From positions 1-38,333 of the forward strand of contig DYJZ01000007.1 in NCBI GenBank assembly GCA_020722885.1: a stretch of 38,333 nucleotides of DNA. The letters are read 5' to 3'. Below, in pieces: positions 21,462 to 25,202 of the stretch. The position numbers and the translations under genes are program-made. The DNA comes from Thermoanaerobaculum aquaticum (GTDB lineage Bacteria > Acidobacteriota > UBA4820). The notes below the pieces were generated by a model. The model was not told the DNA's origin, ran no database searches, and saw nothing but the letters and a program-made list of their open reading frames with translations. Position 1 is the first letter of the stretch; each line of letters starts with the position of its first letter.

Positions 21462-23816
21462 TTAGAATGTTAATCCAATCGTAAATTGAAAGTGTGAAAA
21501 ATCATCACCCGGCTTTGGCTTCAGGTTTGTTGCCCATATTATCCTCAAAGGCACATTGAACATCGGAATAAAAAACCTTGCCTCAACTCCGGCATCTGCT
21601 CTATAATTTGAAAGTTCCCATTCCTGTCTTTCATGATAAGTATTGCCAATATCACAAAAAAGGGCGACATCCATTTGTTCAGTTAAATGAAAAACATATT
21701 CTATATTTGAAAGAAAGAACCTGTTTCCACCCTCTATCGTTCCAGTTTCTGCATCAACAAAATATCTTTCATCTTTCGTAAGAGGATAAACAGACCTTAC
21801 TCCAAATCCCCTTAAAGAATCTTCCCCACCCAAAAAATATCTTTCCCACAAAGGAATAGTTCTGCCTTCAAATGGTGTAATATAGCCTATCTGCAACCTG
21901 AAGGCTGTATTCTGCTTTTTGAATGTAGGAATGAATAAACTGCCGTCGTAGGTTGGTTTTAGAAAATAGTTATCCCCTCCAAAAGGACCGCCAGCAACAT
22001 TCAGGGTAAGATATGAAGACCAACCACGAGACGGTCTGAATGGATTGTTAACAGAGTTCCAGAAAAGTGTTCCAAAGCCTAAAGAGGTTGTTGTATCCCT
22101 CGTGTAAAGTCCGTAATAATTAACCTTGGGATAAATGTAGCTTTCAACATCTTTGACTTTGGACCTTTCATATTTGTATCCTAATTGATAACCAGCAAAA
22201 TCTCCCAAAGGAAAAGTTACAGCCGCAGAGCCTCCGCTTGCTAACTGGTCAAACTGAAGATAGGTTAATCTCTGATTGTAAATTGATGTGCTGAAACCTA
22301 TCCTGTGACCAAAGAACCAGGGATCAGAATAAGTTATTGAGTAAACTTTCTGTATCTTTCCAAAATCTGCATTCAGACTTAACGTCGTCCCTCTTCCGAG
22401 GAAATTGTATGTTCTGAATTGACCGGTGAGGTAGAAGCCATTAATCCCTCCGTAACCACCACCAAAAAGAAGTTCGTTTTTATTTGCTTCTGTACCCGAA
22501 ATCTTGATATCCACTTTATTTTCGTTTGGAACTTTTGTTATAACTGGATCTTCCTTTATGTCAAAAAGACCGGTCATTTTGAGCCTGTATAGCCCTCTTT
22601 CATATTTTTTATAGTTAAAGAGTTCCTGCTCATAAACCTGCATCTCTCTTCTTAAAACAAAATCCCTTGTTGAAACATTTCCAAAAAACTCAATCCGGTT
22701 CACAAAGTATTTCTCATTTTCAGTAATGGAAACTGAGACATCTACCACCTTGTCTTCTTTATTTCTTTTAAAAATAGGCGTAGCACTTGCATAAATGTAT
22801 CCTTTTTCGCCATATTTTTTTTCGAAAACCTTTAAAACTCCATCAAAGCCAACCTTGTTAAATGTTTTTCCCTTCGGGAATTTTATTCCTTTAAGAAGTT
22901 CTTCATCTGAAATTACTGTGTTACCCTCTATTGAGACATTTCCGAGAGTGTAAGACAGTCCTTCGGTTATGGGAATTGTAATTTTAATATTCTTTTTCTG
23001 CTTCTTTCCCTCTTTAACAATTTCTGTTTCAACAAGAGGGTCTCCAATTTCAACATCAATATATCCTTCACTTTCATAAAGCTCTATCAACCTTTTTTCA
23101 TCCTCCTGGTATCTGCTTTCCGAATAAATATCATGTCTTGTTATCCACGATAGGAACCAGTGTTCTCTTGTTTTCTTTAAGGCATCTTTTAGTTTCCTCT
23201 CACTAATAGCTTTTGCTCCCAAAAATTTTACTTCGCTTATTCTTGCCTTTGGTCCTTCTTCTATGTGGAAAATCACCGCAACCTGAGACTTACCAAGATT
23301 GTGAATTTCAGAAGATATTTCTACGTCAGGATATCCTTTTTCCGCCGCTATATATCTCAAAGCTGCTTCTGCTTTTTTTATTGTATCAAAATTCAGTACT
23401 GTTCCAGTCTTTACTTCGGCTTTGTTTTCTTTCAATTTATCCAGAATGCTCGTTGAAGTAAGCTTTTTTGAACCTTTGAATTCAACAGACGAAATTATTG
23501 GTTTTTCCTTTATTTTGAATATAATTTCTATACCTTCTGCGCTCTCTTCCTCTTCAACAGACAAATCCTCAAAAAGACCAGAATCCCATATTCTTTTAAA
23601 CTCCCTTTTTACTGTTTCTTCATCATAAACCTGATTGGGACGAAGGGAGGTCAGAGCCATAAAAGCCTCCTGAGTAATCCTGTCAGCTCCCACAAGAGTT
23701 ATTTTTACTATTCTCTTTTCCTGCGCACTTACAGCAACAAAAAAAACCAAAATAGAAAAGACCATCAAAAATCTGACAAAAAACCCTCTTGAACCTAAAA
23801 ACAGTTTTTGTTCCAT
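21462..23816 (-). CDS. bamA: Outer membrane protein assembly factor BamA
   Basis: This 784-residue protein has a signal peptide (about 1-32), five POTRA domains (about 35-450, with turns such as VEFKGSKKLTS, VKFLGAKAIS, VSIEGNTVIS and IEFFGNVSTRD) and a 16-strand beta-barrel to the C-terminal Phe. The conserved loop L6 motif appears as LRGFGVRS, and the last strand FQFTIGLTF has the outer-membrane insertion signature. BamA folds and inserts beta-barrel proteins. It is the first gene of the envelope operon. A small inverted repeat (TTCCC/GGGAA, 23830-23845) lies in its leader. No convincing -35/-10 pair was found upstream. Confidence 0.94.
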   Translation of the reverse strand: MEQKLFLGSRGFFVRFLMVFSILVFFVAVSAQEKRIVKITLVGADRITQEAFMALTSLRPNQVYDEETVKREFKRIWDSGLFEDLSVEEEESAEGIEIIFKIKEKPIISSVEFKGSKKLTSTSILDKLKENKAEVKTGTVLNFDTIKKAEAALRYIAAEKGYPDVEISSEIHNLGKSQVAVIFHIEEGPKARISEVKFLGAKAISERKLKDALKKTREHWFLSWITRHDIYSESRYQEDEKRLIELYESEGYIDVEIGDPLVETEIVKEGKKQKKNIKITIPITEGLSYTLGNVSIEGNTVISDEELLKGIKFPKGKTFNKVGFDGVLKVFEKKYGEKGYIYASATPIFKRNKEDKVVDVSVSITENEKYFVNRIEFFGNVSTRDFVLRREMQVYEQELFNYKKYERGLYRLKMTGLFDIKEDPVITKVPNENKVDIKISGTEANKNELLFGGGYGGINGFYLTGQFRTYNFLGRGTTLSLNADFGKIQKVYSITYSDPWFFGHRIGFSTSIYNQRLTYLQFDQLASGGSAAVTFPLGDFAGYQLGYKYERSKVKDVESYIYPKVNYYGLYTRDTTTSLGFGTLFWNSVNNPFRPSRGWSSYLTLNVAGGPFGGDNYFLKPTYDGSLFIPTFKKQNTAFRLQIGYITPFEGRTIPLWERYFLGGEDSLRGFGVRSVYPLTKDERYFVDAETGTIEGGNRFFLSNIEYVFHLTEQMDVALFCDIGNTYHERQEWELSNYRADAGVEARFFIPMFNVPLRIIWATNLKPKPGDDFSHFQFTIGLTF

Positions 23817-23969
23817 CTTCTCTTTCCAATTCCCAACTTCGGGAACATTAAAGGATAAAGTATATCACTATTTGCCATTTTTTTCATCTCTTTTAAAGAA
23901 TCCCACACTATATTGGACTTTTTTCGAGAGACAGGAGATGATAAGAAGAAAATGGGGAAGGAAAAAGCA

Positions 23970-24127
23970 GTCATTGCGAGCAGACGTAACCTGTCATTGC
24001 GAGTGCTCTCTAAAATTGTCATTGCGAGTGCTCCTTTGCAGCCCCCACTTACGAAGCAATCTCCCTCTTTTCAAACAAAGGAAGATCACTTCGTTTGTAT
24101 ATGCTTCGAAGTAAACCTCGTGATGAC
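23970..24127 (+). repeat. REP-like modular repeat, copy A
   Basis: GTCATTGCGAG occurs three times in tandem (23970, 23993 and 24018), about 23-25 bases apart, with partly shared text between (TGCTCTCTAAA). An imperfect palindrome follows: ACGAAGCAATCT (24051-24062) pairs with AGATCACTTCGT (24083-24094), and the last GTCATTGCGAG pairs with CTCGTGATGAC (24117-24127), so most of the block can fold back. A second copy at 38029-38190 shares the same modules. Short palindromes of the GTCATTGCGAG type are, from memory, dispersed in many bacterial genomes. Reading frames across it are not genes. Confidence 0.85.
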
Positions 24128-24144
24128 AGTTAATTGTTATTAAC

Positions 24145-24265
24145 ACCAATTTGACATCAATAGTATACAAATCAACTCCACCCGTAGGCTGGAATACATA
24201 TTCCGGTCTGGACGAGGATTGGTTTCGTCGCCTGTGAATTGGTAAACGACGGATGTCAAATTGGT
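24145..24265. repeat. 121-bp fold-back element with inner hairpins
   Basis: Perfect 14-base inverted ends (24145-24158 and 24252-24265) continue inward as an imperfect stem to about 24176/24234 (14 of 18 inner positions can be paired or near-paired only in part). The apical part carries two adjacent hairpins: GGAATA/TATTCC (24191-24204, extendable to 24185-24210 with G-T pairs) and GACGAG/TTCGTC (24211-24229). It could be a small mobile element, a structured RNA or a DNA cruciform. No target-site duplication or transposase is visible. Confidence 0.6.
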
Positions 24266-24330
24266 ATAAGTTGAAAATAGGCGCATTCTGCAAAAGAAAA
24301 TATCGAAATCAGCAAAATTATCAAAAACAT
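24256..24330 (-). pseudogene. Stump of a secreted-protein gene
   Basis: On the minus strand, ATG at 24330 opens 24 codons reading as a signal peptide: hydrophobic LIILLISIFSFA, then ECAYFQLIPI, ending at TGA 24258-24256. The stop lies inside the right arm of the fold-back element, and no continuation is found beyond it. A good promoter lies upstream (24412-24440). The picture suits a gene cut short by insertion or deletion, though no clear Shine-Dalgarno sequence precedes the ATG, so it could also be chance coding next to a non-coding transcript. Confidence 0.35.
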
Positions 24331-24500: not shown

Positions 24501-25202
24501 CTATCTCTTTTTTGCAAAAACTTCTATGACAATTCCTGATGTTCTTTTTCTTATTTTGATTTCTTGAAAACCATATTTGTTGAGAAGATTAACAAGCTCT
24601 TCATTCAGGGGAAAATTTTTTGTGCTCAGTGGCAGGTATGTGTAGGCAAAATCGTCTCTTGAAATCCATTTGCCGATTTTTGGAAGAATAAATCTAAAAT
24701 AAAAATAAAAAAAGGGGGCAAGAAGTCCCTTAACTTCTCTCGGGAACTCAAGAATCACCAACCTGCCTCCACTTTTTAAAACTCTGGCAATCTCGCAAAT
24801 TCCTCTTTCAATATCTTCAAAATTTCTAATCCCAAAACCGACGATACATCCATCAAAGGTCTCATCTTTGAAAGGCATTGATAGTCCGTCACCATTTATA
24901 AAAAATAGTTCTTTTGTTTTTTTTCTTGCAATTTTGAGCATCTCAAGGGAAAAATCTACTCCTACTATTGTTGCTTTTCCCCTTTTGCTTAGCTGTATTC
25001 CAAAATCTCCTGTTCCTGAACATAAATCAAGGAAAATCTGGCTTTCTTCAGGAAAAAAGTTTTTTACCCCTTTTTTACGCCATATCAAATCAAAACCAAA
25101 AGAAAGAGTGTGGTTGAGAAAATCATAGTAAGGAGCAATATTAGAGAACATTTTTCTTACCTCTGAACTCTTTTTTACTTCTGGCAGATTAAATTCTTCC
25201 AT
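24501..25202 (-). CDS. ubiE: Demethylmenaquinone methyltransferase UbiE/MenG
   Basis: This 233-residue SAM-dependent methyltransferase has the UbiE/MenG family features: VRKMFSNIAPYYDFLNHTLSFG at the N-terminus, motif I LDLCSGTGDFG at 58-68, GIRNFEDIERGICEIARVLKSGG in the middle and the C-terminal IVIEVFAKK. It methylates demethylmenaquinone to menaquinone in the last step of the pathway, or the ubiquinone counterpart. Menaquinone is the more likely product in a lineage of this sort, but no other quinone gene is in the window. It is the last gene of the ABC-transporter operon, 3 bases after hldA. Confidence 0.9.
   Translation of the reverse strand: MEEFNLPEVKKSSEVRKMFSNIAPYYDFLNHTLSFGFDLIWRKKGVKNFFPEESQIFLDLCSGTGDFGIQLSKRGKATIVGVDFSLEMLKIARKKTKELFFINGDGLSMPFKDETFDGCIVGFGIRNFEDIERGICEIARVLKSGGRLVILEFPREVKGLLAPFFYFYFRFILPKIGKWISRDDFAYTYLPLSTKNFPLNEELVNLLNKYGFQEIKIRKRTSGIVIEVFAKKR

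Follow-up and report, generated by a model that had tools for sequence, protein, structure and literature searches.

The fold-back stretch studied here, from Thermoanaerobaculum aquaticum (assembly GCA_020722885.1), is very probably one copy of a non-autonomous miniature transposon (MITE) that has IS630-type ends on its outside, carries a pair of GTAG hairpins inside, and is moved in trans. It lies in the first 38,333 nucleotides of contig DYJZ01000007.1, and we refer to this whole stretch of DNA as the window. Taken together, the multicopy spread of the family, its IS630 ends and its TNA target duplication lead us to a MITE that was most likely mobilised in trans by an IS630-type transposase. 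The features discussed below are as follows.

24144 to 24266, plus strand: whole 123-bp element (MITE), with its edge placed by comparing the flanks of 58 full-length copies for 3-bp identity
24145 to 24158, plus strand: left terminal inverted repeat ACCAATTTGACATC, with C for the first T of the 15-bp family end TACCAATTTGACATC
24252 to 24265, minus strand: right terminal inverted repeat, 14 bp, a perfect match to the left end
24141 to 24143, plus strand: left copy of the putative target duplication TAA, ambiguous since another repeat, ending TTATTAA, makes up the left flank
24267 to 24269, plus strand: right copy of the putative target duplication TAA, from the 3-bp flank comparison across copies
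24184 to 24208, plus strand: REP-like unit made of a GTAG tag (24184 to 24187) and hairpin 1 (24187 to 24208), from the family alignment
24211 to 24235, minus strand: REP-like unit made of hairpin 2 (24211 to 24232) and a degraded inverse GTAG tag, damaged in this copy, from the family alignment
23969 to 24143, plus strand: CATTGCGAG-type repeat array (units at 23969 to 24033), outside the element and adjoining it
24501 to 25202, minus strand: ubiE/COQ5-type methyltransferase gene, upstream neighbour
21462 to 23816, minus strand: Omp85/BamA-type gene, downstream neighbour

The element sits in a 684-bp gap between the Omp85/BamA-type gene and the ubiE-type gene, both on the minus strand, and its 123 bp correspond to the 121 bp marked out in a preliminary description, extended by one base on each side. 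That description, made from the letters alone, had claimed perfect 14-base inverted ends and the absence of any gene, and both claims held up (24145-24158 against 24252-24265; no gene inside the 123 bp). It had also proposed two adjacent hairpins at 24185-24210 and 24211-24229, and the family alignment places them close by, at 24187-24208 and 24211-24232.

By BLAST, we found the element at 22 places in its own genome (G000; an assembly of 1.90 Mb in 107 contigs, 91% complete), mostly at full length, with the other 21 copies 70-89% identical to the one in the window. Across 60 genomes including this one, three match, namely the own genome, a genome from the same family with one place (G003), and a genome from the same order with 14 places scored (G012); the remaining two species of the genus (G001 and G002) yielded no copy by BLAST. 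A 25-base pattern from the 3' end recovered 10 stretches from the collection of species genomes, all from Acidobacteriota, with 0 matches among viral contigs. The preliminary description had named a covariance-type search with an alignment of relatives as a check, and homologues were found: a model of the full unit that combined structure with sequence had matches in 5 of the 396 genomes of the phylum, all from one order (G000, G003, G005, G009 and G012). Within the loci fetched, a profile search located 79 places, spread over five genomes, of which 58 are full-length copies. Copies in the own genome are intergenic in 22 of 23 cases, compared with 16.8% for random placement within the same loci, and copies occur in either orientation relative to the neighbouring ORFs. 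Several own-genome copies (L009, L010 and L011; L022 and L040) have both flanks or a truncation in common, indicating that these were duplicated as parts of larger units.

The unit is 123 bp long and is accompanied by a 3-bp TNA duplication, as established by matching flanks: the three bases to the left equal the three bases to the right in 37 of the 58 full-length copies, compared with a mean of 13.3 and a maximum of 24 in 2000 shuffles of flank partners. The flanking sequence is TNA on the left in 55 of 58 copies and on the right in 53 of 58, and of the 50 copies flanked by TNA left and right, 37 also have the same middle base in both flanks (shuffle mean 13.1; 0 of 5000 shuffles as high). 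This signal is strongest in G012 (25 of 32 copies, and 25 of 28 among TNA/TNA pairs) and weak in the own genome alone (10 of 21; 60 of 2000 shuffles as high), partly because some copies there lie in larger duplicated units. Across the same 58 copies, no other duplication length or offset stood clearly above its own shuffles. We did not find a base-level empty site among the orthologous genes of three relatives, which share only 40-64% protein identity. The end unit of the CATTGCGAG-type array occurs at 22 places in the genome, directly before the element at 7 of them and without it at 15; since the right flanks of these 15 places do not correspond, they do not amount to clean empty sites.

A search with the end sequence revealed ACCTATTTGACATC many times near contig ends of the own genome. 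Each of the 15 places that we read starts one and the same insertion sequence (IS), with the longer ones reaching the start of a transposase, and the left ends have T at -3 and A at -1 in 15 of 15. At all 15 of these contig ends (L023-L037), the assembly is broken by copies of an IS630 present in high copy number. An intact IS630-family relative is found at locus L120 in G018, and its left end, TACCAATTTGACATC, equals both ends of the own-genome MITE consensus over 15 of 15 bp. Over the following 19 nt, the MITE left end also resembles the right end of the L120 IS (1 of 1000 shuffles as high), and the inner right part of the MITE has no likeness to this IS. Two reading frames at L120 carry HTH_33 and DDE_3, and score 61.7 and 101.1 bits against the NCBIfam IS630 model, whose cut-off is 100; the IS lies between TCA and TGA, two flanks that do not match.

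The assembly of the own genome contains no intact transposase, with nothing over threshold for DDE_3 and only pieces at contig ends, such as a C-terminal transposase piece at the end of contig 58, and we read the missing DDE_3 as the IS having collapsed at contig ends. The N-terminal peptide of the IS, taken alone, reached the cut-off of no Pfam family. Another candidate, an IS630 transposase in G012, was rejected: it shares 40% identity with the L120 ORF, and its probable inverted ends (at about 950 and 2080 in L198) differ from the MITE ends. The accessible text of one account has TA as the duplication of the IS630-Tc1-mariner group, with Sailor (TATA) as a described departure (PMC8533490). 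The element here duplicates TNA where TA is usual, so we file it as a MITE with IS630-type ends and a divergent target and not as a typical IS630 MITE. TNA is then a further departure from TA, observed for the MITE and only indicated for the IS by its left flanks.

In the mechanism that we propose, an IS630-type transposase supplied from another part of the genome would bind the terminal repeats, excise the 123-bp unit and insert it at a TNA site, duplicating these three bases. The GTAG core would most likely have joined an ancestral MITE as a REP insertion and been copied along since. Three options had been offered in the preliminary description: the miniature mobile element is borne out by the multiple copies, the IS630 ends and the 3-bp duplication; the structured small RNA is not favoured; and a protein-binding form is implied by the MITE reading, as a palindrome that the transposase would bind.

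Turning to the Y-shaped centre, in an alignment of 50 sequences (A2) a GTAG tag is followed by two 9-bp hairpins, separated by a spacer of a few bases, and then by the inverse tag CTAC. Inverted pairs of GTAG plus an imperfect hairpin are present in alignments A2 and A3, and a well-kept G012 copy (L057) folds exactly into the paired-hairpin form. Judged by its sequence, the centre consists of two GTAG hairpins arranged head to head, which is how a GTAG REP dimer, or REPIN, is built according to the accessible portions of PMC3733652 and PMC3116915. The same core is found in a second G012 MITE subfamily, whose ends differ (TACCAAGTTGCATTC...), and at L075, L098 and L076 it lacks such ends. We also observed a hybrid copy at L099 (364-483), with the left end of the second subfamily and the right side of the first. 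The two subfamilies and this one hybrid copy in G012 suggest that the core passes between MITE end types. Such passage forms part of a broader proposal that we hold only tentatively and consider rather unlikely as a whole, in which the 123-bp unit would be a dual-system element with sites for both a DDE enzyme (the IS630-type ends) and a HUH/RAYT enzyme (the GTAG pair), its core would pass between end types, and the target of its IS630 group would have shifted from TA to TNA.

The anatomy of the centre also raises a reading in which the element is a REPIN first, whose folded single strand would be moved by a RAYT tyrosine transposase via the GTAG hairpins, with the outer ends as mere flank. 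The inverted pairs of GTAG tag and hairpin fit this, as do the cores that stand alone, the clustering with other stems at L075 (127-332; three GTAG hairpins that differ in their stems but share an ACAC loop), and the excess of G-T on the GTAG strand of each hairpin described below. RAYT-like genes flanked by GTAG hairpins exist as well, in G012 and G005, where REPtron-like Y1_Tnp genes lie at L128 (1470-2185) and L132 (about 560-1340); the GTAG hairpins beside the tyrosine transposase genes of these two genomes have other hairpin sequences. None of the tyrosine transposase loci fetched elsewhere contains this core (GTAGGCYGGGATACAYATCCC-type hairpins), with the proviso that G012 is 67% complete and may be missing a gene. 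The own genome, at 91% completeness, has no Y1_Tnp gene, and on this ground we rejected a RAYT as the mover there; nor did we find the same REP flanking a RAYT gene, the mark of a REPtron, in the own genome or in the loci fetched. Such a REPIN would moreover leave unexplained the conserved ends, the TNA duplication, the match to the IS630 end and the junctions at the 123-bp ends in 37 of 58 copies, and we consider this origin improbable.

A different question is whether the fold acts as RNA. We folded both strands, as the preliminary description had proposed, and each is far better than shuffled sequence: as RNA, the plus strand reaches -46.8 kcal/mol (z -5.5) and the minus strand -38.7 kcal/mol (z -3.6), with 0 of 200 shuffles as good for either, and DNA folding parameters give the same verdict for the 121 bp. 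An RNAalifold consensus of 21 own-genome copies revealed only a weak partial structure, and we used the structure read from the wider alignment in its place. In the hairpins and inverted ends, 89.9% of cells are paired. Compensatory changes among relatives, which the preliminary description had named as a check, were present by one count and sparse by the other: 61 cells are changed on both sides (shuffle mean 26.9; 0 of 500 shuffles as high), but only 12 pairs have double changes (shuffle mean 8.9; 35 of 500 as high), mostly at columns 6/120 and 10/116, end positions that separate genomes.

The preliminary description had further suggested that G-T pairs in the hairpins suit an RNA or single-stranded DNA form of the plus strand. 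Across 50 copies read on that strand, this stands for hairpin 1 (33 G-T and 8 A-C cells) but is reversed in hairpin 2 (9 G-T and 25 A-C), with 28 G-T and 21 A-C cells in the inverted ends; counts per pair, taken in the own genome, show a weaker bias, with five G-T and two A-C in hairpin 1 and three and four in hairpin 2. An RNA of the plus strand would favour G-T in both hairpins, and the A-C rather than G-T mismatches of hairpin 2 thus speak against one. Such a mirror-image pattern would fit a pair of inverted units that are each tolerant on their own GTAG strand, and is suggestive only, as the copies are related and the per-pair counts small.

A structured non-coding RNA or mRNA processing element on the plus strand, spreading by an unknown route, would account for the strong fold, the kept paired positions and the 12 double-change pairs. 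The A-C cells of hairpin 2, the small number of positions behind the double changes, mainly ones that separate genomes, the copies in both orientations relative to neighbouring ORFs, and Rfam, which returned 0 matches across the whole window and hence no described structured RNA family, all weigh against such an RNA, and we deem it highly improbable. Slighter still is the prospect of a chance fold-back or a product of local duplication with no mobility. The own-genome copies carried inside larger units lend themselves to this account, which may hold for single copies; for the family, it is refuted: copies are numerous across several genomes, their flanks are unrelated, and they carry target duplications.

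As a rule, REP/REPIN hairpins are classed apart from MITEs among bacterial repeats, and GTAG-type hairpin pairs are usually moved by a different enzyme than an IS630-type transposase. The family described here unites the two kinds in one unit. With REPIN/RAYT systems it shares the inverted pair of GTAG-tagged imperfect hairpins, the intergenic placement and some cores that stand alone, but it is bounded by 15-bp transposon ends with a target duplication, and no cognate RAYT was found. The nearest MITE is RUP of Streptococcus pneumoniae, which is likewise small (about 107 bp) and intergenic, with the ends of IS630-Spn1, but which inserts at TA rather than TNA, and for which the accessible part of PMC2229807 mentions no GTAG hairpin pair such as the one here. 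ERIC and Correia/NEMIS are also small, palindromic, intergenic MITEs with a strong fold, a likeness drawn from their descriptions in the accessible parts of PMC2229807 and PMC10969869.

The nearest composite, and one printed precedent, is found in Anabaena variabilis, where GTAG-15 REP dimers are nested in a long outer palindrome as they are here, and where palindromes without a GTAG dimer were not found, according to the accessible part of PMC3733652. The outer sequence given there, TATAGGA...TCCTATA, is unrelated to the ends of our element, and section 7 of that paper, in its accessible text, assigns the palindrome to no transposon and gives no target duplication, whereas the element here has both. 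Among open papers, we found none in which IS630-type MITEs are linked to GTAG dimers, to TNA or to Acidobacteria. The family provides an IS630-type system whose target is the 3-bp TNA in place of the customary TA, as well as a testable account of the GTAG dimers that stand unexplained inside long palindromes of cyanobacteria in the accessible part of PMC3733652.

Finally, the copy in the window differs from better-kept members of its family. Its hairpin 1 has two G-T pairs on the plus strand, and its hairpin 2, which is intact in most copies from relatives, has A-C, G-G and T-T mismatch positions and is missing from the RNA minimum-energy fold. Given this decay, the C in place of the usual T at the left end, and the repeat that forms the left flank, we read it as probably an old and immobile copy between ubiE and bamA, whose second hairpin has decayed. 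The striking fold-back between these two genes is most likely, then, a mobile repeat that has decayed rather than a regulatory RNA. We additionally observed a further repeat, GGACATTTCTAAATAGTCTTGACA with variants, in the right flank of several copies and elsewhere (L003, L008, L009, L011, L020 and L023).
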